From positions 1-64,000 of the forward strand of contig NZ_NFJZ01000006.1 in NCBI RefSeq assembly GCF_002160135.1: 64,000 nt of DNA. The letters are read 5' to 3'. The stretch is from Lachnoclostridium sp. An196. Its GTDB lineage: Bacteria; Bacillota; Clostridia; Lachnospirales; Lachnospiraceae. The notes beneath the pieces were generated by a model. It was not told the origin of the DNA, ran no database searches, and saw only the letters and a program-made list of their open reading frames with translations. The translations under genes were made by a program, and so were the position numbers. Position 1 is the stretch's first letter. The number at the start of each line of letters is the position of its first letter. This document shows, one piece after another, positions 5,322 to 16,389 of the stretch.

Positions 5322-6113
5322 TTATCTCCACACAATATCCGCCTTTTTCCTGGGGGCTGTCCTCTTATAGGATACGGCCGGATATCCGATCAGCATACAG
5401 CAGACCAGAGGCGTATCCGGGATTCCAAGCCACTCTTCCAGTTCCGGACAGGCTTTTATGATCCGGGTCAGATATCCGCTGTAGAGGACGCCCAGTCCTT
5501 TGGCAACCGCCATATTTTCAATATTGGCTGCCGCAAGCCCGCCGTCCAGCGCGTTATCCGCGGCGATCATGATGCAGGCGGGAGTATTGAAAAACAATCC
5601 GTCATCCTCCGGGTGCCTGCTCCGTCTGCGGTGCATGAATTTAAACAGCGCAGCATAATGGGGCATCTCCGCTTTCATCTTCTCCACCATCTCCAGAACC
5701 TGATCCCAGAGCAGGTCCTTAAACTGGTCAAGTTCCTCCTGAATCACGATAAAGCGGCAGGCCTGCCTGTTCTTCGCCGTGGCAGTATATCTTCCGGCCT
5801 GCAGGATCTGCTCCATGCAGTCTTTTTCGACCTTTTTATCGCGGAAATTACGGATACTTCTTCTGAATTTTACCGCGTGAAGAAAATTCTCCGGAGCGAC
5901 AGAAAATGTTTCCGCATCATATTCTTCCACATCCGCCATATCGTACTCCGGAATACTTACCGCTCCTTTCGGGCAGACAGCCACGCAGTGGCCGCACTGG
6001 ATACATTCCGGTGTGTAGACCGCTTTTCCGTCATGAACCGATATCTTCGCCGCCGGACAGTCCTTGGCGCAAAGACCGCATCCCACACATTTTTTCTCAT
6101 CAATTTCAACCAT
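5322..6113 (-). CDS. nitroreductase family protein with N-terminal 2[4Fe-4S] ferredoxin domain
   Basis: A 263-residue flavoprotein. Residues 1-60 hold two ferredoxin clusters, CVGCGLCAKDCPAAK and CIQCGHCVAVCPKGA. The nitroreductase domain follows (FRRSIRNFRDKKV, RYTATAKNRQA), with GVLYSGYLTRI and a C-terminal CMLIGYPAVSYKRTAPRKKADIVW-type end usual in the group. I chose the start at 6113 because GGAG lies just upstream; a longer frame to 6209 would overlap the GtrA gene and has no binding site. It probably passes electrons from reduced ferredoxin to an FMN-bound substrate. It is the last gene of the operon that begins with the aminotransferase, but may be functionally independent. Confidence 0.88.
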   Translation of the reverse strand: MVEIDEKKCVGCGLCAKDCPAAKISVHDGKAVYTPECIQCGHCVAVCPKGAVSIPEYDMADVEEYDAETFSVAPENFLHAVKFRRSIRNFRDKKVEKDCMEQILQAGRYTATAKNRQACRFIVIQEELDQFKDLLWDQVLEMVEKMKAEMPHYAALFKFMHRRRSRHPEDDGLFFNTPACIMIAADNALDGGLAAANIENMAVAKGLGVLYSGYLTRIIKACPELEEWLGIPDTPLVCCMLIGYPAVSYKRTAPRKKADIVWR

Positions 6114-6147
6114 ACCGCTGCTCTCCTTTTCCAATAAAAATTTCATA

Positions 6148-6573
6148 CTAATGCTTCTTCGCCAGCTCATTGGTATCCAGGCTGTCCCGGAACACAAAGA
6201 ACCGGTCATACAAAAACTCCAGGGTAAAATTTGCCACCATATTGATGACGGTTACCAGGTATTCATTCCAGTGCAGGCTTTCCACGAGGAAATTGCCAAG
6301 TACCGTGGAAGCCGGCGTAAACACACAGTAAAAGGCAAAAACCTTAATCATGGCAGCCGGCACGTTGCTGGCAGACTGGAACGTGTATCTGCGGTTCAGT
6401 GTAAAATTCCACAGCACCGACAGTACCAGCGCAATCAGGTAACAGGGCCAGTAACTCCATCCGGTCAGTTCATTGAGAAGGGAAAAGGCCGCGATCTCAA
6501 TGACTCCCGCAGAGATAGAAAATAATAAAAATTTCAGCGAGCGCAAAAGCTCCTTATGCCTGACATTGCTCAT
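6148..6573 (-). CDS. GtrA-like membrane protein
   Basis: A 141-residue protein with four predicted transmembrane helices (for example FLLFSISAGVIEIAAFSLL and YLIALVLSVLWNFTLNRRYTF). The N-R-x-Y-T-F motif after helix two is a hallmark of GtrA/DPMS-type proteins, which are linked to transfer of polyprenyl-linked sugars across the membrane. Its start overlaps the stop of the FGGY kinase by four bases (6570-6573), so the two are translationally linked. Whether it serves cell-surface glycosylation or the operon's own pathway is unknown. Confidence 0.85.
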   Translation of the reverse strand: MSNVRHKELLRSLKFLLFSISAGVIEIAAFSLLNELTGWSYWPCYLIALVLSVLWNFTLNRRYTFQSASNVPAAMIKVFAFYCVFTPASTVLGNFLVESLHWNEYLVTVINMVANFTLEFLYDRFFVFRDSLDTNELAKKH

Positions 6574-8162
6574 TGAGAAAGCCTCCTGTAGTTTTTCTTG
6601 TTGCTCTGATACAGTCTTTTGAAGATGTCGAAGTATTTATCATAGATCTTCTTTTTCTCCGGATCCGGCTCAAAGCGGCCGGACACAGGGATGAAATCTT
6701 TCACCCGGTCCAGATCCCCGATGGCGCCCAGTCCCACGGCAGCCACAGCGGCCGCGCCTACGGCGCCCACATTCTGGGGATTCTCCACTACTTCAATGGT
6801 ACGTCCCGTTATATCCGCCAGGATCTGAGAAGTCACCGGGGACAAAGCGCCTCCTCCAACAAACCGTATTACAGAGGAAGTCTTTACTTTTCTTTCTTCA
6901 CACTCCAGCATCCAGCGCAGATGATAGCAGATGCCTTCCAGCACCGCGCGGATCAGTTCTGATTTTCCCGTCTCCAGGCGGATGCCGAAAAACATGCCCG
7001 CCGCAGCCGGATCTTCAAAAGGACAGCGGTTTCCGTGCAGCCAGGGTGTGAATATCACGCCGCCGGAGCCTTCCGGCACCTGGCTTACCACTTCGGTCAT
7101 ATAATCGTACAGGCTCCGGTATACCGCCTCATGGCTTTCCGACACATCTACTTTCTTCAGATAAATCCCGATCTCGTCCAGCGCCAGATGGTCTTTTACC
7201 CATTCCAGACATTTCCCGGCTGTCTCCATCTCTGCAAAATAATTATATCTTCCGGTCTGTGCTCCCACGATCGCCGCGATCATGGCGGAGACGTCCACTA
7301 TCTGCCGGTCTGTCACGGTACCGACCCATCCGGAGGTGCCGCAGTAGATATGCGTCTCACCCACGCCCACGCACCCGGAGCCGACGCCGATCAGGGAAGC
7401 GTCCCCGCCTCCTCCAAAGACCGGAATGCCCGCCGGAAGCCCCAGTTCCTCCGCCGCCTGCGCGGTCAGGGATCCTGCCCGGTCGGAAGATCTGATGATG
7501 CGCGGCAGATGCTCCATCTGAATGCCGAACATGCGGCAGAGACTTGCGCTCCACCCTTCTTTCCCTTTTCTGGTGTCATAGAGCAGCGTCGCGAATGCGG
7601 AGTCTTCCGTCATGACGCATTCTCCGGTCAGCCGGCGGATAAAATACTCTTTTACATCCAGCCACTTGTCTGCCCGCCGGAAGTTCTCCGGTTCATGATT
7701 TTCGATCCATTTATATTTCCACATAGGATCTTTGACGCTGGTGGACACGGCTCCGGTGATGCGCAGGCATTTCAGCAGCCGGAACACATTGGCTCCGGCG
7801 ATCTGCGGACCGTAAGCAAGGCCTTTCCGTATCTCAGCCTTTGCCCGCTGATCCATATAACTCATAGGGCGGTGCACCGGCTTCCCATCCTTGTCCACCA
7901 GCACCAGCCCCTGCATCTGGGAGCAGAAAGAGATCCCTGCCACTTCGTCCGGTCTCACTTCTGTCCCGGCAAACAGTTCCTTTGTCGTATCGCAGACTGC
8001 CTGCCACCATTCTTCTTCATCCTGTTCGGCTCCGCCGTCTTCCAGAATATAGAGACGGTATCCTTTGCTCACGCCTGCCAGCAGCGTGATCGTATCATCC
8101 ACACGGAACAGACAGGTTTTTACGCCTGTCGTTCCGATATCGTAAGCCAGCACATAAATCAT
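6570..8162 (-). CDS. FGGY family carbohydrate kinase (xylulokinase-like)
   Basis: A 530-residue sugar kinase that would phosphorylate a pentose, pentitol or related polyol with ATP. The N-terminal phosphate motif is YDIGTTGVKTCLF. Further FGGY landmarks are GISFCSQMQGLVLVD, MSYMDQRA, FGGGGDASLIGVGSG and the C-terminal signature IRFVGGGALSPVTSQILADI, then VGAVGAAAVAAVGLG. The start at 8162 has GGGAGG about nine bases upstream and falls just after the TetR stop; two upstream ATGs (8192, 8183) overlap that gene. Class II aldolase and aminotransferase genes upstream suggest phosphorylation followed by aldol cleavage. The family is certain, the substrate is not. Confidence 0.88.
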   Translation of the reverse strand: MIYVLAYDIGTTGVKTCLFRVDDTITLLAGVSKGYRLYILEDGGAEQDEEEWWQAVCDTTKELFAGTEVRPDEVAGISFCSQMQGLVLVDKDGKPVHRPMSYMDQRAKAEIRKGLAYGPQIAGANVFRLLKCLRITGAVSTSVKDPMWKYKWIENHEPENFRRADKWLDVKEYFIRRLTGECVMTEDSAFATLLYDTRKGKEGWSASLCRMFGIQMEHLPRIIRSSDRAGSLTAQAAEELGLPAGIPVFGGGGDASLIGVGSGCVGVGETHIYCGTSGWVGTVTDRQIVDVSAMIAAIVGAQTGRYNYFAEMETAGKCLEWVKDHLALDEIGIYLKKVDVSESHEAVYRSLYDYMTEVVSQVPEGSGGVIFTPWLHGNRCPFEDPAAAGMFFGIRLETGKSELIRAVLEGICYHLRWMLECEERKVKTSSVIRFVGGGALSPVTSQILADITGRTIEVVENPQNVGAVGAAAVAAVGLGAIGDLDRVKDFIPVSGRFEPDPEKKKIYDKYFDIFKRLYQSNKKNYRRLSQ

Positions 8163-8166
8163 ATCT

Positions 8167-8823
8167 TCATTTTCCTCCCTCATGGGGAACATCCTCCCTG
8201 GAAAATGTAAACGCGGATTCCAGAAATCTTAACAGCTGTTCCCTGACCATATCATCCTCCGGCAGATCCCCGCCGCAGTACAGTTTCCACCGTTCCCTGT
8301 AATAATCACAGCAGAGTCCGAACTGCAGCATCATCAGAAGATTATCGAAAAAAAACGCAGCCGTCCCGGGATCCATGTCCTCTCTGACAGTCCCGTTCTT
8401 CTGCGCTTTTCCTATAATGTCTGTATATAGTCCTGCCGTCATCTTCTCGATCTCCTCCGCCAGGTCCGCCGCGCAGCGGCTGTTTCTGACGGATGTGATC
8501 TCGTGATACATGCGGATATCATCCCCGTGCTCCGCCGCATGCCTCTGCAGTATGCGGATCACCTGGTCCGCGTACCCCAGTATCTTATCCTCCCGGACAA
8601 GCACTTCCTTCAGCGCCTCTTCCAGCCTGCCCACGCTGCGGCGTACACAGGCCAGGAAAAAACTCTCTTTATCCGAATAATACTTGTACAGTACCCCTAC
8701 GCTGATGCCCGCTCTTCCGGCGATGGACGCCATACTGGCCTTTTCCATGCCCCTCTCCGCGAACTCATGGATCCCTGCTTCCAGGATCTCCGCGAGTTTT
8801 GCTTCTGTCAGCTTTTCATGCAT
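8167..8823 (-). CDS. TetR/AcrR family transcriptional regulator
   Basis: A 218-residue repressor-type protein. The N-terminal helix-turn-helix at residues 9-55 reads EILEAGIHEFAERGMEKAS, then IAGRAGISVGVLYKYYSDK. The rest is the variable helical ligand domain. The start at 8823 follows GAAGGAGAG. It sits inside the operon between the aldolase and the kinase, so it probably controls the whole unit. A likely operator is the GTGAA-N6-TTCAC palindrome at 11486-11501, just downstream of the operon promoter. The inducer is expected to be a metabolite of this pathway. Confidence 0.9.
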   Translation of the reverse strand: MHEKLTEAKLAEILEAGIHEFAERGMEKASMASIAGRAGISVGVLYKYYSDKESFFLACVRRSVGRLEEALKEVLVREDKILGYADQVIRILQRHAAEHGDDIRMYHEITSVRNSRCAADLAEEIEKMTAGLYTDIIGKAQKNGTVREDMDPGTAAFFFDNLLMMLQFGLCCDYYRERWKLYCGGDLPEDDMVREQLLRFLESAFTFSREDVPHEGGK

Positions 8824-8828
8824 CCGGA

Positions 8829-9944
8829 CTACCTCTCCTTCTTCCGGGAGTATTTGTTCACATAGACCGTTCTCTGGATCAGGCCGTCCAGTCTGCCCAG
8901 AGGCTTACATTCCGGAAAGTTTTCCGCGAACAGCGCCGCTCTGCAGCCTTTTTCCAAAAGGGCCGCCACTGCCCCCACGTCGTCTCTTGTCCTGCCGGTA
9001 CAGAACGCTCCTTCCCCGCGGATCAGAACTGCGTTTCTGCCCGCAAGCTTTTTCGCCGCGCCCGCCGGATCATGGCCGTCCGCGCAGCGGATCGTAGTCC
9101 CCGCGATCTGAATCAGATCTTCCAGATAGGGAGAAAAATCTTCTCCGCTCCGGCTCACTCTGCGCACTGCGTTGCTGGTGTCCCACAGGATATATTTTGC
9201 GTCCGTATGCCGGTAAATCTCCGCATGGAAAGCCGCTTCTTCCGGCAGGTCATCCGGCAGCCTGTTCAGCCAGTAGACTTTTTTCTCTCCGTTCAGCTGC
9301 AGACAGAATCGTCTGTCTTTGCGTATGCTTCTCCCGTAATCACGGGCAGGAGGAAGCTGCTCCCGGTTCTTATTTCCAAGAAGTCCGATCTGCTCCCTGC
9401 AGACCCGCTCCAGTTCTCTGGCGGCAAGAAACGCGTCCTCCTCGTCCGTTCCCATACAAAGAGCGCCGTGATATCTCATAAGCACAGCTTTGGTCTGCGG
9501 ATAACCCTGCAGCACATCCACTACCGCATTCTTAAGTTTCTTCGTGGACGGCATGCCGTACTGCGCGCAGGGAACTTCCGTTCCCAGCCGTTCAGAATCT
9601 ATATGCGTCAGATCCCTGCCTGTTATTCCGTAGACAGAAGCTGCCTCCTGATGGGTATGAATGACAAAATTCACTTCCGGGCGCATACTGTAAACAGCCG
9701 CATGGATTCCTTTTTCACTGGACGGTTTCCGGGGACCGTCGTAAGAACAGTCCTCGATATTCACCGTCACCAGATCTTCCGGCCTCATATGCTCATATCC
9801 CATCCCGCTGGGAGTGATGACAAACTGGGTGGCAGATATCCTGGCGCTTAAATTGCCCCATGTCCTTGCCACCAGTCCGGTACGGAGCAGTTTCCTGGCA
9901 GACTCTGTCACCAGATTTCTTGCAGTTTCTTCTGTATAAGCCAT
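8829..9944 (-). CDS. two-domain class II aldolase/adducin family protein
   Basis: A 371-residue protein made of two class II aldolase-like halves. The first (about 1-190) keeps the expected residues: SSEKGIHAAVY (Glu), VIHTHQEAA (His-x-His) and MRYHGALCMG (third His), so it can bind zinc and catalyse retro-aldol cleavage like fuculose-phosphate aldolase. The second half repeats the fold, but HTH is replaced by DTS (ILWDTSNAV) and RYHGA by RGEGA, so it is probably a non-catalytic partner. The start at 9944 follows GGGGAGG; the frame extending to 10007 overlaps the aminotransferase gene. A sugar-phosphate substrate from the neighbouring kinase is plausible but inferred. Confidence 0.85.
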   Translation of the reverse strand: MAYTEETARNLVTESARKLLRTGLVARTWGNLSARISATQFVITPSGMGYEHMRPEDLVTVNIEDCSYDGPRKPSSEKGIHAAVYSMRPEVNFVIHTHQEAASVYGITGRDLTHIDSERLGTEVPCAQYGMPSTKKLKNAVVDVLQGYPQTKAVLMRYHGALCMGTDEEDAFLAARELERVCREQIGLLGNKNREQLPPARDYGRSIRKDRRFCLQLNGEKKVYWLNRLPDDLPEEAAFHAEIYRHTDAKYILWDTSNAVRRVSRSGEDFSPYLEDLIQIAGTTIRCADGHDPAGAAKKLAGRNAVLIRGEGAFCTGRTRDDVGAVAALLEKGCRAALFAENFPECKPLGRLDGLIQRTVYVNKYSRKKER

Positions 9945-9978
9945 CTCTATAACCTCCCCTGCTGTATGTCTGCTGTGC

Positions 9979-11463
9979 TCAGACGTCGATGCGTCCACAG
10001 TTTTCAAAGACTCTGTCGAAACGAGCGAGCACGTCGTCGATCATCTCTTCGGTATATGCCGCGCTGGTATACAGCCTGGAACCGGCCAGCGTCACGATCC
10101 CCTCCGCCATGTAAGCGGCTCCCATGTGTTCCATTTCCTTCTGACGGATGCCGGTCTGCTTCAACACCTCCGGAATCGTCCAGGGCTTCGACCAGTCCAC
10201 CACAAAATGCATGGTTCCCACACTGTCCAGATGGCAGATAGAACCCTGGTTGAACGCCACGAACGGAAGATGATGCTTTTCGATCAGCTTCTGCAGTCCC
10301 TTTGTCAGACGGTCGCCCATTCGCCCGGCTTTCTCGCAGGCATTGGTTCTCTCGATCTCGCACAGCGTGTAATATCCTGCCACGCAGGAAATCGGCGTCG
10401 CCGCCAGCGTTCCTCCGCACATGGCTTTGGACACTTTCTTTCCGGAAGAGTCGAGCCCTGCGCCCAGGTATGCCATACAGTCGTCATGGCCGCCGACTCC
10501 GCCTGCTCCAGGATATCCTCCCGCAATAATCTTTCCGAAAATTGTAAGATCCGGATCCACGTCAAAATAGCTCTGCGCGCCTCCCGGCCCGATGCGGAAT
10601 CCGGTCACCACTTCGTCAAAAATCAGAAGCGCCCCGTATTTATGCGCCAGATATTCTGCGCCTTTGATAAAACGTTTGGATACCGGCCTGGTCCCGCTCT
10701 CCGGCCCCACTGGCTCGATATAGACGGCTGCCGTGCCTCCGGACAGACGGTTTCTCTGGAGTTTCCTCTCCAGATCTTCCAGGTCATTCGGGAAGAACTC
10801 ATCTGTATGCCTGAATACGAACCCGGGTACTCCCTTGGACATAAGTCCTTTCGTGCCCGGCACACGGATGCCGTACGCCAGCTGGTCCGACCAGCCGTGG
10901 TAAGCCCCGCCCATCTTCAGGATGTTCTTTTTCCCGGTCTTTAATCTGGCGATTCTGGCCGCGCACATACATGCCTCGGTGCCGGACCCCAGCATACGGA
11001 ACTTCTGTACAGAAGGAACCATCTCCGAGATCTTCTTCGCCAGTTTATATTCATATTCATGGAACAGTCCTGTGGAAGGACCGCAGGTATTCAGAAGATC
11101 GATGACCCGTTCCCGCACTTCCGGCGGATTGCTGCCCAGGATCGTGGGGCCGCCCGCCTGCAGCAGGTCATAATACCAGTTCCCGTCGATGTCGTAGAGC
11201 TTCGCTCCCTCCGCCTTATTGACCACGATGGGGAAAGGATAGTTGAACGCCAGATTGTGCTGCACACCTCCGGGGATCACCTCTTTGGCTTTCTCGATCA
11301 TCTCTTTTGATTTCGCGCATTTTTTCTCAAAATAGTTCTCCACGTAATCGTCCAGCTTATCCGGGCGGATGGAGTAGACCGGCTTTTTGATCAGCTCGTC
11401 CAGCTGTCTGGTCACTTCTTCCGCGTTCAGATACTTGTCAATCGCAAATCCGTTGTACGCCAT
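9979..11463 (-). CDS. class III PLP-dependent aminotransferase (glutamate-1-semialdehyde aminomutase-like)
   Basis: A 494-residue enzyme of aminotransferase fold type I, class III. The cofactor-phosphate region is LGSGTEACMCAARIAR, the Asp contacting the PLP ring is in LLIFDEVVTGFR (D283), and the Schiff-base lysine is K311 in TIFGKIIAGGYP. Relatives include glutamate-1-semialdehyde aminomutase, but this protein is about 60 residues longer, mainly at the N-terminus. No heme-pathway genes are nearby. As the first gene of a sugar-kinase/aldolase operon it more likely handles an amino sugar or amino-polyol intermediate. The start at 11463 has AGGAGG upstream. Confidence 0.87.
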   Translation of the reverse strand: MAYNGFAIDKYLNAEEVTRQLDELIKKPVYSIRPDKLDDYVENYFEKKCAKSKEMIEKAKEVIPGGVQHNLAFNYPFPIVVNKAEGAKLYDIDGNWYYDLLQAGGPTILGSNPPEVRERVIDLLNTCGPSTGLFHEYEYKLAKKISEMVPSVQKFRMLGSGTEACMCAARIARLKTGKKNILKMGGAYHGWSDQLAYGIRVPGTKGLMSKGVPGFVFRHTDEFFPNDLEDLERKLQRNRLSGGTAAVYIEPVGPESGTRPVSKRFIKGAEYLAHKYGALLIFDEVVTGFRIGPGGAQSYFDVDPDLTIFGKIIAGGYPGAGGVGGHDDCMAYLGAGLDSSGKKVSKAMCGGTLAATPISCVAGYYTLCEIERTNACEKAGRMGDRLTKGLQKLIEKHHLPFVAFNQGSICHLDSVGTMHFVVDWSKPWTIPEVLKQTGIRQKEMEHMGAAYMAEGIVTLAGSRLYTSAAYTEEMIDDVLARFDRVFENCGRIDV

Positions 11464-11485
11464 GGCTTGCCTCCTGTTCTACCTT

Positions 11486-11501
11486 GTGAATAGTTGTTCA
11501 C
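11486..11501. promoter_or_regulatory. palindromic operator candidate for the TetR regulator
   Basis: GTGAATAGTTGTTCAC is a 5-6-5 inverted repeat (GTGAA and TTCAC). It lies between the operon promoter (-10 at 11517-11522) and the aminotransferase start, about where the transcript would begin. Its size and place suit a TetR dimer acting as roadblock. Assignment to the TetR protein at 8167-8823 is inference. Confidence 0.6.
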
Positions 11502-11516
11502 GTATTTTCTGATGCT

Positions 11517-11546
11517 ATTTTACCACCAGTCAGACCGCCTTGACAA
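11517..11546 (-). promoter_or_regulatory. sigma-A type promoter of the aminotransferase-aldolase-kinase operon
   Basis: On the minus strand a -35 TTGTCA (11541-11546) and a -10 TAAAAT (11517-11522) are separated by 18 bases. Each box matches consensus at five of six positions. It lies about 55 bases upstream of the aminotransferase start. Confidence 0.65.
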
Positions 11547-11568: not shown

Positions 11569-11616
11569 AAAAGAGCACATGCTTTGACTGTCCAGTCATC
11601 TTTCATGCACTCTTTT
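11569..11616 (-). terminator. intrinsic terminator after xpt
   Basis: Arms of 13 bases at 11569-11581 and 11604-11616 pair with two mismatches, and an inner GACTG/CAGTC helix extends the hairpin. On the minus strand the stem ends in CTCTTTTTATTTTG, a good U-tract. It lies just after the xpt stop and before the next operon promoter. The other strand also ends in TCTTTT, so it may work both ways. Confidence 0.8.
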
Positions 11617-12602: not shown

Positions 12603-13847
12603 CTAACGGTTTGCCAGCTCTTCGGTAATATCTTCCCAGGTCACGCCTTTCTCGGCCATCAGAACCATGGCATGGTACAGAAGATCCGACATCTCGTATT
12701 TTACTTCTTCCGGATCCGGATTCTTGGCGGCAATCACCAGCTCCGTCGCTTCTTCTCCTACCTTTTTCAAAATCTTGTCGATTCCTTTGTCAAACAGATA
12801 GTTGGTGTAGGAACCTTCTTTGGGATGCACTTTCCGGTCCAGTATCACATGATACACGTCTTCCAGTACATGAAGCGGATTCTTGCCTTCATTCTCCCGC
12901 TCTACCAGATCGCGGTAAAAGCAGGTCCGGTTTCCCGTATGGCAGGCCGCGCCGATCTGGCTGACTCTGGCCAGAATCGTATCATTGTCGCAGTCTATAG
13001 ATAAAGACTTTACATACTGAAAATGGCCGCTGGTCATCCCCTTGGTCCAGAGTTCGTTCCGGCTGCGGCTCCAGTATGTCATCTTTCCGATACGCAGCGT
13101 GGTCTGAAACGCCTCTTCGTTCATATAGGCGAGCATCAGAACTTCCGATGTCCGGTAGTCCTGCACGATGACCGGAACCAGTCCGTCCGCGTCCGTCTTC
13201 ATCTCGCTCCATGGAATGCTGCTCTCCAGAACGTTCATCTCCAGGCCCCGCTTTGCCGCTTCTTCTTTCAATCCCATAAAATCCGCCACTTCTGTGGAAA
13301 AATAAATACTGGCGATCCCTGCTGCCCATTTATTGGCAAGCACATTAATGACCGCATCTTTTGTAGCAGCGGAGCTGACGCTGATCACAGGCAGTTCTCC
13401 TGTATATGGACAATGGGTATCCGATCCGGACCACAGAATCAGACTTCCTTTCTCATCCAGTTCTCTGGTGAGCTGCGTCTCATCCGCAATGGAAAAACCG
13501 ATCTTTTCCCTGCCGAACCGCTTTGAGACCTCATCCGTCATGTCCACATTGCTTTCCCGGCCATAATTCAAAATAGCTTTTTCACACCCCGCATAAAGGA
13601 TTTTCTTCACATCCTCTGTACGGCGGATGTGTCCTCCTGCGTAGACCGGGATCTCCGCCGCGCGCGTTATCTCTTTCATAAGTCCGATATTTGCTTCGTG
13701 CTCTTCATCCGACTCGGACAAATCAAAAAGGAGGATTGCGTCCGCTCCGTTATCACTGTAAAATTCTGCAAGTTTTACGCCGTCCTGTCCGTTGACCCTG
13801 CCTCCGCGCAGAGGCATTACAGGAACCAGATACTTTTTTTTCATCAT
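12603..13847 (-). CDS. hisIE: HisA/HisF-like domain fused to phosphoribosyl-AMP cyclohydrolase and phosphoribosyl-ATP diphosphatase
   Basis: A 414-residue histidine pathway protein with three parts. Residues 1-205 resemble a HisA/HisF half-barrel protein ([29 protein letters not shown]). The usual first catalytic Asp is missing: [12 protein letters not shown] stands where relatives have PALDL or PCLDV. Residues 213-315 are HisI, with the metal residues in [15 protein letters not shown] and [11 protein letters not shown]. Residues 325-414 are HisE, with [14 protein letters not shown] and YEMSDLLYH. HisIE performs steps two and three of the pathway. The start overlaps the hisB stop by four bases. 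The barrel domain is probably not a working isomerase or cyclase. Confidence 0.9.
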
Positions 13848-14434
13848 TCCAAACTGCCTTTCGTTGATAATACACCTGTGATTCTCTCATCTATGGAAAC
13901 CGCCATATCCAGCGCCTTCGCAAATGCCTTGAACATAGCCTCGCAGATATGATGGCTGTTGCTTCCCGAAAGCATCTGGAAATGCAGGTTCATCTCCGCA
14001 CTGTAGGAAATGGCGTAAAAGAATTCCCGTACCATTTCTGTATCCATGTCTCCGATCTTCTGTGACGGGAACTCCACATTGGACACATAGTAAGGACGGC
14101 CAGAAAGATCTACGGCGCAGAGTACCAGCGCTTCATCCATCGGCAGGATGCAGCTGCCGTAACGCCGGATTCCTTTTTTGTCTCCTACTGCCTCTTTGAT
14201 GGCTTTTCCAAGCACAATCCCGGTATCCTCGATGGTATGGTGGCAGTCCACTTCCAGATCTCCGTCCGCGCTTATTGCTAAATCAAAAAAACCGTGTCTG
14301 GCAAATCCGTCCAGCATATGATCAAAAAAACCGATCCCTGTATCCAGCTGCGCGGTTCCGCTTCCGTCCAGATTCAGGGTCACACTGACGTTGGTCTCTT
14401 TGGTATTCCTCTCTATCGTCGCCCTGCGATCCAT
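13844..14434 (-). CDS. hisB: imidazoleglycerol-phosphate dehydratase
   Basis: A 196-residue enzyme of histidine biosynthesis, removing water from imidazole glycerol phosphate. The two metal-binding repeats are visible: [13 protein letters not shown] with [14 protein letters not shown], and later [11 protein letters not shown]-type [11 protein letters not shown] with [18 protein letters not shown]. This is the monofunctional bacterial form, without a phosphatase domain. I place the start at 14434 because AAAGGAGG lies seven bases upstream; the frame runs further up but only into hisD. It begins right after the hisD stop. Confidence 0.95.
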
Positions 14435-14435
14435 C

Positions 14436-15743
14436 TCATACCTCCTTTCCCGGCTCTTCAAAGCGCACGTGGATAGAGTTGGCATGCGCCGTGAGCTGCT
14501 CCTGCTTCGCAAAATATTCAATATCTTCGTGTGCTTTTTCCAACGCCTCTCTGGAATAATAAATAATACTTGATTTCTTTACGAAATCATCCACAGACAC
14601 CGGGGAGAAAAATCTCGCCGTTCCGTTGGTTGGAAGGATGTGGTTCGGCCCCGCAAAATAGTCTCCCAAAGGTTCGCTGCTGTATTCTCCCAGGAAAATA
14701 GCCCCCGCGTTGCGGATCTTCGTCATGACTTCAAAGGGATTGCGCGTCACGATCTCCAGATGTTCGGAAGCGATCAGATTGACCGTCTCCACCGCGTCTT
14801 CCAGCGAATCCGCCAGAAGAATCCAGCCATAATTGTCCAGGGATTTCTGGATGATCTCCTTCCTGGAAAGACCTTTTACAAACTCATCCACTTCCTCGGA
14901 CACTCTTCTGCCCAGCTCCTCGCTGGTGGTCACCAGAATCGCACTGGCCATCTCGTCATGTTCCGCCTGAGAAAGCAGGTCTGCCGCTACGTACCTGGGA
15001 TTGGCAGTCTCATCCGCCAATACCAGAATCTCGCTGGGACCGGCGATGGAATCGATTCCCACATACCCGGATACAGCTTTTTTCGCCAGTGCCACAAAAA
15101 TATTTCCCGGGCCTGTGATCTTGTCAACTTTGGGGATACTTTCCGTACCGAATGCCATGGCGGCGATCGCCTGCGCGCCGCCTATTTTATATACGGCGTC
15201 TGCTCCCGACTCTTTCGCAGCTACCAGAACCGACGGATTGACCCTGCCGTCCTTGCCGCAGGGCGTAGCCATAATTACCTGGCTGACCCCGGCAATCTTT
15301 GCCGGAACTATATTCATCAGCACAGAAGACGGATACACTGCTTTTCCGCCCGGCACATATACGCCTGCCGCCCGAAGCGGCGTCACCTTCTGCCCCAGAA
15401 TCGTCCCTTCCGGAGTGGAGTCAAACCAGCTGTACTGACGCTGTTTTTCATGATATTCACGGATGTTTTTCAGAGATTTCCGAATCGTTTCAAGAAGCCT
15501 CTTGTCAATTTTCTCATACGCCTCCCGAAACTCTTCTTCCGTCACCTGCACATTGGCCGCTCCGATCCCGTCCCAGTCGAATTTCCGGGTCAGCTCAAAA
15601 AGCGCCTGATCCCCTTCCGTGCGCACCCGCTCCACGATCTCCGTGACCGTATCGTTATACTCTCCGTAATTGCCCGGACTTCTCTTTAACAGAGTGTCCA
15701 GCAGATTTTTTTTCGTTGTATCATCCAGTTTTACTGTCCGCAT
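14436..15743 (-). CDS. hisD: histidinol dehydrogenase
   Basis: A 435-residue zinc enzyme that oxidises histidinol to histidine with two NAD+. It shows VYVPGGKAVYPSSVLMN, the glycine-rich KIGGAQAIAAMAFGT, KITGPGNIFVALAKK, IDSIAGPSEILVLAD and the catalytic region LIASEHLEIVTRNP. The C-terminal GPNHILPTNGTARFFSPVSV is fully typical. Length is normal. It follows hisG after 10 bases. Confidence 0.97.
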   Translation of the reverse strand: MRTVKLDDTTKKNLLDTLLKRSPGNYGEYNDTVTEIVERVRTEGDQALFELTRKFDWDGIGAANVQVTEEEFREAYEKIDKRLLETIRKSLKNIREYHEKQRQYSWFDSTPEGTILGQKVTPLRAAGVYVPGGKAVYPSSVLMNIVPAKIAGVSQVIMATPCGKDGRVNPSVLVAAKESGADAVYKIGGAQAIAAMAFGTESIPKVDKITGPGNIFVALAKKAVSGYVGIDSIAGPSEILVLADETANPRYVAADLLSQAEHDEMASAILVTTSEELGRRVSEEVDEFVKGLSRKEIIQKSLDNYGWILLADSLEDAVETVNLIASEHLEIVTRNPFEVMTKIRNAGAIFLGEYSSEPLGDYFAGPNHILPTNGTARFFSPVSVDDFVKKSSIIYYSREALEKAHEDIEYFAKQEQLTAHANSIHVRFEEPGKEV

Positions 15744-15753
15744 AGTCCGCCTC

Positions 15754-16389
15754 CTATAGTACCGCTTTTAATTCCTGGATCAGTTTCCCGATCCGGTCGT
15801 TTTCCATCTTCATGCTGACCTGGTTCACCACCATGCGGGCGGACAGCGGGCAGATCTCCTCCAGAACCTTCAGTCCGTTCTCCCTCAGCGTAGATCCGGT
15901 CTCCACGATATCCACGATCACTTCCGACAGGCCTACGATAGGCGCCAGTTCTATGGAACCGTTCAGTTTGATGATCTCCACTGTCTGGTGTTTCTGGTCA
16001 TAGAAATAATTTCTGGCAATGTGCGGATATTTGGTGGCCACCCGGATCAGTTCCTGTTTCTTAAGCAGATTCCTGGCAGATTCCGGACCGCAGACGCACA
16101 TCCTGCATTTTCCGTATCCCAGATCCAGAACCTCATACATTCTGCGGTTTTCTTCCAGGATCACGTCTTTTCCTACCACCCCGATATCCGCCGCCCCGTA
16201 TTCCACATAAGTAGGTACGTCCGGCCCTTTGGCCAGGAAAAATTTCAGTTTTCTCTCTTCATTTACAAAGATCAGTTTTCTGGTATCCGGGTCCTTCATC
16301 TCCTCGCAGGTAATGCCCACTTTCTCCAGCAGCTCCATGGTCTTTTTCGCCAGGCGCCCTTTACACAGGGCAAATGTCAAATATCTCAT
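15754..16389 (-). CDS. hisG: ATP phosphoribosyltransferase, short form catalytic subunit
   Basis: A 211-residue HisG of the short type that needs HisZ. It begins YLTFALCKGRLAKKTMELLEK, has GAADIGVVGKDVI, and near residues 150-170 the PRPP-binding stretch IVDIVETGSTLRENGL. The regulatory C-terminal domain of long HisG is absent, consistent with hisZ next to it 13 bases upstream. It catalyses the first committed step of histidine synthesis. Confidence 0.96.
   Translation of the reverse strand: MRYLTFALCKGRLAKKTMELLEKVGITCEEMKDPDTRKLIFVNEERKLKFFLAKGPDVPTYVEYGAADIGVVGKDVILEENRRMYEVLDLGYGKCRMCVCGPESARNLLKKQELIRVATKYPHIARNYFYDQKHQTVEIIKLNGSIELAPIVGLSEVIVDIVETGSTLRENGLKVLEEICPLSARMVVNQVSMKMENDRIGKLIQELKAVL

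Follow-up and report, generated by a model that had tools for sequence, protein, structure and literature searches.

The unit and its conservation

The window analysed here, a stretch of 64,000 nucleotides (positions 1 to 64,000 of contig NZ_NFJZ01000006.1 of Lachnoclostridium sp. An196), carries on its minus strand an operon in which genes for a class III aminotransferase (AT), a two-domain class II aldolase (ALD), a TetR-family regulator and an FGGY kinase (KIN) follow one another (Table 1). As judged by sequence comparison, this operon is probably a catabolic (or detoxifying) cassette for phytosphingosine, the head of which is HOCH2-CH(NH2)-CHOH-CHOH-, and the route looks widespread among bacteria of the gut and of the environment. 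A preliminary description of the same DNA had presented the four genes as one unit, and the Pfam assignments and coordinates confirm this. The gene order is AT-ALD-TetR-KIN-GtrA, with first three gaps of 34, 5 and 4 nt, and the GtrA gene overlaps KIN by 4 nt, which places a fifth gene, for a membrane protein, inside the unit. From this layout we take AT, ALD, TetR, KIN and GtrA to be one unit. A promoter-like site sits between the upstream inverted repeat and the palindrome before AT, and such sites occur in the region at chance level (7 found versus 6.2 expected in shuffles).

Table 1. Features of the operon and its borders in the window
Feature	Position	Strand	Remarks
AT, class III aminotransferase, glutamate-1-semialdehyde-aminomutase-like	9979-11463	-	PF00202; proposed sphingoid-base 2-aminotransferase
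ALD, two-domain class II aldolase (two PF00596 stretches)	8829-9944	-	proposed ketose-1-phosphate-type aldolase yielding dihydroxyacetone phosphate
TetR-family regulator	8167-8823	-	PF00440
KIN, FGGY kinase	6570-8162	-	PF00370 + PF02782; proposed sphingoid-base (or 2-keto-base) kinase
GtrA/DPMS-type membrane protein	6148-6573	-	PF04138; proposed flippase or uptake protein
Promoter-like site TTGTCA-18-TAAAAT, TG ahead of second hexamer	11517-11546	-	consensus match only
16-bp palindrome GTGAACAACTATTCAC, proposed TetR operator, 38 nt upstream of AT start	11486-11501	strand-neutral	motif kept upstream of AT
Inverted repeat, looks like terminator of the upstream xanthine phosphoribosyltransferase gene (xpt)	11569-11616
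Ferredoxin-nitroreductase	5322 to about 6113		outside the conserved unit

We scanned one genome per species and took the best 80 of 543 confirmed loci (the named loci, with AT 75-99% identical to the window AT), in which partner genes were detected by tblastn with the window proteins. ALD lies alongside AT in all 80, KIN in 73 (the contigs of the remaining 7 stop at most 1.9 kb downstream of AT), GtrA in 67 and TetR in 55, one of the last (L101) being a short stray match; KIN is divergent in L082, L095 and L107, and the gene order is altered in L044. The co-occurrence of these genes, for which the preliminary description had suggested a search, is thus strongly conserved. The same description had begun the operon at position 5,322 and so took in a nitroreductase that does not belong, as this gene was found in just 2 of the 80 loci (95% in L028, where other genes intervene between it and the cassette, and 24% in L086) and was rejected as a cassette member. 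Among the named loci, neither a sugar isomerase nor a sugar transporter accompanies the cassette in a conserved manner.

According to the record titles, the cassette occurs in Lachnospiraceae, Oscillospiraceae, Erysipelotrichaceae, Sedimentibacter, Lutispora, Mogibacterium, Eubacterium pyruvativorans and one Treponema, in a patchy manner (2/17 genomes of the genus, 13/391 of a class sample and 6/398 of a phylum sample), while AT is present in 27 of the 247 genomes of a spirochaete-phylum sample. The Treponema KIN nests among Bacillota kinases in the kinase trees (see below), which suggests horizontal transfer and a cassette that appears to be mobile as well as conserved. Searching 299 Lachnospiraceae genomes with ALD gave 22 matches, and the 20 loci examined comprise 11 with KIN and ALD, 10 of these also with AT, and 9 with neither KIN nor ALD; on these loci we rejected the aldolase alone as a cassette marker.

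Of 54 TetR-carrying cases (the window among them), 45 have the motif GTGA[AG]-N6-[CT]TCAC in the 150 nt before AT, whereas 200 shuffles gave 0.015 on average and 1 at most; the palindrome is beyond chance, and TetR presumably binds it. Among 26 cases without a TetR match the motif occurs in 5, four of which are short contigs.

The three enzymes and the kinship of the kinase

None of AT, ALD and KIN reaches the NCBIfam cut-off of any named enzyme. AT is a class III aminotransferase (PF00202, 167.7 bits versus a cut-off of 30.5) with the glutamate-1-semialdehyde aminomutases (GSAM) as best solved chains (207 bits), and an FGK...GG stretch in its pyridoxal-phosphate (PLP)-lysine region aligns with the GSAM chains. 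It scores below the NCBIfam HemL cut-offs (271 versus 398 and 252 versus 527 bits), and a closer HemL-type candidate, 38% identical to the window AT, is encoded elsewhere in the genome. The arginine of the aminomutase VRAF stretch, which we take to have a role in carboxylate recognition, falls in a gap of the aligned window AT, as would fit a substrate without a carboxylate. Across the AT family, the substrates may be several compounds that share an HOCH2-CH(NH2)-CHOH- head.

The first half of ALD is a FucA-type class II aldolase active site. The window protein holds all residues of this type (H92, H94 and H155 for the metal, E73 as the acid, T26/N29/S71 for the phosphate), and among 117 cassette aldolases E73, H92 and H155 are found in all, H94 in 116 and, at the phosphate site, N29 and G28 in 116, S71 in 112 (T in 5) and T26 in 103. 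In its AlphaFold model (mean pLDDT 93.3), about 200 residues of the window protein match structures of AraD, FucA and DrdA, and ALD is below cut-off for all listed NCBIfam L-fuculose-phosphate aldolase and ribulose-phosphate epimerase models (best 141 versus 251). A diverged aldolase domain makes up the second half (98.3% probability for the two halves versus each other in hhalign), and it is missing in some Erysipelotrichales-type and spirochaete aldolases, 32 of the 117 being under 270 aa. A separate protein of 207-243 aa, encoded next to AT in a Burkholderia locus and in five spirochaete loci, aligns with this second half (97.2%, hhalign) and also with the first (97.1%; plain BLAST not significant); neither Pfam nor NCBIfam gave a family for the Burkholderia protein.

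KIN belongs to the FGGY superfamily (FGGY_N 154.7 versus 28.8 bits, FGGY_C 107.3 versus 27) and is below the cut-offs of the NCBIfam equivalogs XylB (298.5/380), gluconokinase (232/649), LsrK (155/528) and GlpK (141/590). A different kinship emerged from loci L197 and L198, in which KIN, a sphingosine-1-phosphate (S1P) lyase of 503-517 aa, TetR, KIN, AT and a RuBisCO-like protein are adjacent. Among solved structures, the 503-aa protein of L198 scores 630 bits with S1P lyase 3mad, 450 bits with the human S1P lyase 4q6r and at most 110 with other PLP decarboxylases. Both loci also carry a conserved 355-451-aa protein without a Pfam name, plus TetR. A search of the 247 spirochaete genomes for S1P lyase returned 52 matches in 39 genomes, with an FGGY kinase directly upstream in 24 of the 30 matches examined and, by coordinates, upstream of two further ones (G1228 C46 and G1168 C4); the kinase-lyase gene pair is common across spirochaetes (L200-L223). 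S1P lyase is present in 15 of the 27 spirochaete genomes with AT and in 24 of the 220 others (Fisher p 3.3e-7, a test that ignores phylogeny).

We built kinase trees of 65, 85 and 31 rows with E. coli XylB, LyxK, RhaB, GlpK, FucK, LsrK and AraB and the other FGGY proteins of G000, G1168, G1228, G1267 and G327 as comparators. In all three, the kinases of AT cassettes and of S1P-lyase pairs group together, apart from the E. coli and other FGGY proteins; this exact grouping is supported at 87/69, 100/98 and 86/83, respectively, and at 100/99, 100/99 and 100/100 once the L145/L148-type kinases are added. The kinases of a Burkholderia cassette (L150) and of the spirochaete loci L181, L184 and L192 group with the S1P-lyase kinases and not with the window KIN, and those of the AT-RuBisCO-like loci L197-L199 fall among the S1P-lyase kinases (65- and 85-row trees). 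A tree forcing all AT-aldolase kinases together was rejected with p-AU 1.2e-7, for a group drawn after the first tree and with several comparators on long branches.

A proposed route for phytosphingosine and its alternatives

The initial idea of phytosphingosine came from the order of the enzymes, which would turn HOCH2-CH(NH2)-CHOH-CHOH-R into dihydroxyacetone phosphate (DHAP) and R-CHO, and from a class-3 aldehyde dehydrogenase in two loci; the assignment of the substrate in the window draws on the kinship of KIN and on the cassette partners. We infer substrates, products, ligand and direction of transport as follows. The amphiphilic base would cross the membrane with the help of GtrA, or of a major facilitator superfamily (MFS) protein in its place. 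AT would transfer the C2 amine to a keto acid, leaving a ketone at C2 and the nitrogen in an amino acid, and KIN would phosphorylate the C1 hydroxyl before or after transamination; the kinases of the S1P-lyase pairs must use the amine itself, and thus KIN may act before AT in the window. The product would be a ketose-1-phosphate with an alkyl tail that ALD would split between C3 and C4 into DHAP, which would enter glycolysis, and a long-chain aldehyde (pentadecanal, C15, from C18 phytosphingosine). A class-3 aldehyde dehydrogenase would oxidise this aldehyde, or an iron alcohol dehydrogenase would reduce it, with the gene inside the cassette in some cases and elsewhere in others, and TetR would be released by the lipid from the palindrome before the AT gene. 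The reaction logic of the preliminary description (amine to ketone, phosphorylation, aldol split) thus appears to hold as far as it is testable on sequences, while its substrate class, an amino sugar or simple amino-polyol, is probably wrong, given a kinase clade that pairs with S1P lyase and lipid-type partners in the cassettes.

On the transport step, its statement that the unit lacks a transporter holds only in part. GtrA is in the unit, and of 139 AT loci 78 have GtrA, 19 an MFS transporter instead and none both, an exclusion that makes GtrA a candidate for the uptake step and in which the two are largely divided by phylum. The MFS protein, of about 400-450 aa, is conserved beside AT in L172, L176, L177, L179-L186, L188-L194 and L277; these proteins are reminiscent of FLVCR-type carriers, although NCBIfam gives sub-cut-off MFS models only.

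Aldehyde-handling and lipid-type genes accompany the cassette in several taxa. A class-3 aldehyde dehydrogenase lies at most 6.5 kb from AT in 9 of 129 loci (L048, L056, L133, L135-L138, L140 and L150), which span Bacillota, Spirochaetes and Burkholderia, and also in the Lachnospiraceae cassettes L265, L279 and L280; among solved chains it comes closest to 6k0z and to class-3 and fatty aldehyde dehydrogenases, with benzaldehyde dehydrogenase close too. Iron alcohol dehydrogenases occur in 8 of the 129 loci. The Lachnospiraceae locus L265 is a tight seven-gene unit, AT-ALD-TetR-KIN-aldehyde dehydrogenase-amidohydrolase-GtrA, whose amidohydrolase is of the D-aminoacylase type (PF07969; 1v4y 135 bits), has a relative in L142 and is a candidate N-deacylase of phytoceramide. 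In L174 an AMP-binding ligase of the acyl-CoA ligase type (PF00501, 269 bits) follows AT-ALD-ALD and an enoyl-CoA hydratase precedes it. The cassette on a Burkholderia ambifaria plasmid (L150) reads TetR-KIN-ALD-AT-second aldolase domain-short-chain dehydrogenase/reductase (SDR)-class-3 aldehyde dehydrogenase, and beyond it lies an Mpo1-like gene (PF06127, '2-hydroxy-palmitic acid dioxygenase', 82 bits); yeast Mpo1 serves phytosphingosine breakdown. By eye we also recognised AOR-like neighbours in cassettes and, just upstream of AT in L084, L100 and L101, a glyceraldehyde-3-phosphate dehydrogenase-like gene that would fit a triose-phosphate product.

These partners bear on a biosynthetic role, in which ALD would join DHAP to a fatty aldehyde, AT would add the amine and GtrA would act in envelope assembly. 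Aldolase and aminotransferase reactions are reversible, and GtrA proteins are found in envelope-glycolipid loci; however, the ATP-dependent kinase would have to run in reverse, two of the partners, the class-3 aldehyde dehydrogenase and the N-acyl deacylase, are catabolic, and S1P lyase, with which this kinase clade is paired, is degradative. We therefore regard biosynthesis as very improbable.

The identity of the base is a further matter. Kinship with the S1P-lyase kinases indicates sphingoid bases generally, and TetR control and the patchy occurrence within the genus fit detoxification, so that the substrate might be a different lipid amino alcohol (sphinganine, sphingosine or a long-chain base of bacteria or algae), or the main role the detoxification of membrane-active bases. 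However, a FucA-type aldolase requires a hydroxyl at C4, which sphinganine and sphingosine do not have, and ALD is kept with its catalytic residues throughout the named loci; we consider this alternative rather improbable. A RuBisCO-like protein replaces the aldolase beside AT in L142, L146, L147, L197, L198 and L199, with an FGGY kinase in all but L147. Its nearest model is 2,3-diketo-5-methylthiopentyl-1-phosphate (DK-MTP-1-phosphate) enolase, below cut-off for L142 and L146, and these loci may represent a second, parallel route that handles bases lacking the 4-hydroxyl. In L197-L199 the RuBisCO-like gene is followed by one that looked like a zinc-dependent phospholipase C, a reading set aside because Pfam gave no family for the L198 copy.

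Degradation of a polar amino-polyol or amino-sugar alcohol would proceed by the identical chemistry on HOCH2-CH(NH2)-CHOH-CHOH-, AT giving a ketose, KIN its 1-phosphate and ALD DHAP plus a small hydroxyaldehyde. The xylulokinase models are those that score best for KIN, albeit below cut-off, and some AT relatives keep sugar-type company, but we consider this reading unlikely in view of the pairing of the kinase clade with S1P lyase, the class-3 aldehyde dehydrogenase, acyl-CoA ligase and Mpo1-like partners, the lack of a conserved sugar transporter or isomerase in the named loci and the TetR type of the regulator.

The sugar-type relatives are among several observations that weigh against phytosphingosine. 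In the distant L148 (AT 48% identical), NagA and a zinc dehydrogenase accompany AT, as do a LacI regulator and an FBP-type aldolase, and L147 (AT 50%) has a sugar-type GPH symporter and a sugar-binding regulator, both settings that suggest an amino-sugar alcohol; a DeoR regulator and a ribokinase-like kinase lie just upstream of some Lachnospiraceae cassettes (L037). No S1P lyase was found in the window genome (best match 28 bits over 136 residues), and the link to this enzyme is observed in spirochaetes, not among the relatives of the window. The class-3 aldehyde dehydrogenase equally fits aromatic aldehydes (5ucd, MdlD model), is outside the window unit with one copy elsewhere in the genome, and is moderately commoner in cassette genomes (34/50) than in genomes of the family (117/290), sets whose taxa differ. 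The Mpo1-like gene is on the opposite strand beside an IS5 transposase, and each of the three neighbour types (Mpo1-like, acyl-CoA ligase, deacylase) was seen in one or a few loci. Ceramidase (PF04734) is above cut-off in 2 of 50 cassette genomes and absent from the window genome, so that most cassette genomes would need free bases from others; we rejected neutral ceramidase as a cassette partner.

L148:5035-12898 is an arrangement in its own right, with NagA (above its cut-off), an FGGY kinase, AT, LacI, an FBP-type class II aldolase and a zinc dehydrogenase together, and looks like an N-acetyl-aminohexitol pathway via fructose- or tagatose-bisphosphate. A ribokinase-like PfkB kinase is directly upstream in L037, L040, L046 and L049, that of L037 being preceded by a DeoR/GlpR-type regulator; neither gene was found in the other named loci, and the pair was rejected as a general cassette part. 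L038 and L046 have two GatY-like aldolases (by eye) plus a second FGGY kinase.

Returning to the kinases, on balance we favour, with less assurance than for the cassette itself, the view that part of the FGGY 'carbohydrate' kinases are sphingoid-base kinases, a bacterial counterpart of sphingosine kinase. One branch would serve the horizontally spread phytosphingosine route (C2 transamination, C1 phosphorylation and a C3-C4 split that yields DHAP plus an odd-chain aldehyde, S1P lyase playing no part), and in related cassettes for other bases the RuBisCO-like protein would replace the aldolase.

Phytosphingosine is a main base of plant and fungal sphingolipids. It also occurs in epithelial tissue, the lining of the digestive tract included (PMC10140171), yet a review calls microbial sphingolipid metabolism inadequately understood (PMC8160510). 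If the proposal is true, the cassette would provide a genetic marker and enzymes for anaerobic sphingoid-base breakdown that extend from Lachnospiraceae, Oscillospiraceae and Erysipelotrichaceae to Spirochaetes and a Burkholderia plasmid. It would also account for some odd-chain fatty aldehydes in the gut and place a branch of lipid kinases within a textbook sugar-kinase family, and the question of which gut bacteria remove sphingoid bases, and by what means, would become directly testable.

Elsewhere in the window, an open reading frame (ORF) at 31-1416, near the window edge, reads by eye like an IS30-type transposase, and histidine biosynthesis genes (12603-16389, by eye from the ORF list) lie upstream of xpt on the same strand.

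Comparison with known systems

The pathways for D-apiose, 5-deoxyribose, autoinducer-2 (AI-2), taurine/isethionate, ethanolamine, glucosaminate and fructosamine were set aside, as their gene sets differ from that of the operon. The 5-deoxyribose/methylthioribose DHAP shunt (DrdA/Ald2) still resembles it in that a FucA-type class II aldolase splits a hydrophobic-ended ketose-1-phosphate into DHAP and an aldehyde, and among solved sequences ALD matches the DrdA structures 6btd/6btg best (77 bits). In the shunt, however, an isomerase makes the ketose and the kinase is not of the FGGY type, whereas the window has an aminotransferase for the ketone and an ALD with a second aldolase-like domain. Similarly, L-fucose and L-rhamnose catabolism (FucK-FucA, RhaB-RhaD, FucO) combines an FGGY kinase, a class II aldolase with the same residues and an aldehyde-handling dehydrogenase, but uses an isomerase where the cassette has an aminotransferase and no sugar permease, and E. 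coli FucK and RhaB are far from the cassette kinases in the trees.

Among sphingoid-base systems, the sphingosine kinase-S1P lyase route of eukaryotes (bacterial lyase 3mad) likewise phosphorylates the base and releases a long-chain aldehyde, but S1P lyase cuts between C2 and C3 and releases phosphoethanolamine, whereas the window cassette would cut between C3 and C4 and release DHAP; eukaryotic sphingosine kinases are a different kinase family. FumI (6hbs), the aminotransferase of hydrolysed fumonisin, is also a class III enzyme acting on a sphingoid-like 2-amine, yet at 85 bits it is not the nearest relative of the window AT, a place held by the aminomutases. The SphR regulon of Pseudomonas aeruginosa (sphA, sphBCD, cerN) is a bacterial response to a sphingoid base with probable breakdown to a long-chain aldehyde, and its account (PMC3900636) names an oxidase, a threonine-aldolase-like enzyme, an AraC regulator and glycine as a predicted product, and no aminotransferase, FGGY kinase or class II aldolase. 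The open-licence full-text literature (no subscription journals or preprints) yielded no link of FGGY kinases with sphingosine, nor of this gene set with any substrate, in agreement with the preliminary description, which had recognised no described pathway. Our best reading is thus that the operon represents a DHAP-aldolase pathway run on a sphingoid base, a combination undescribed in the literature searched.

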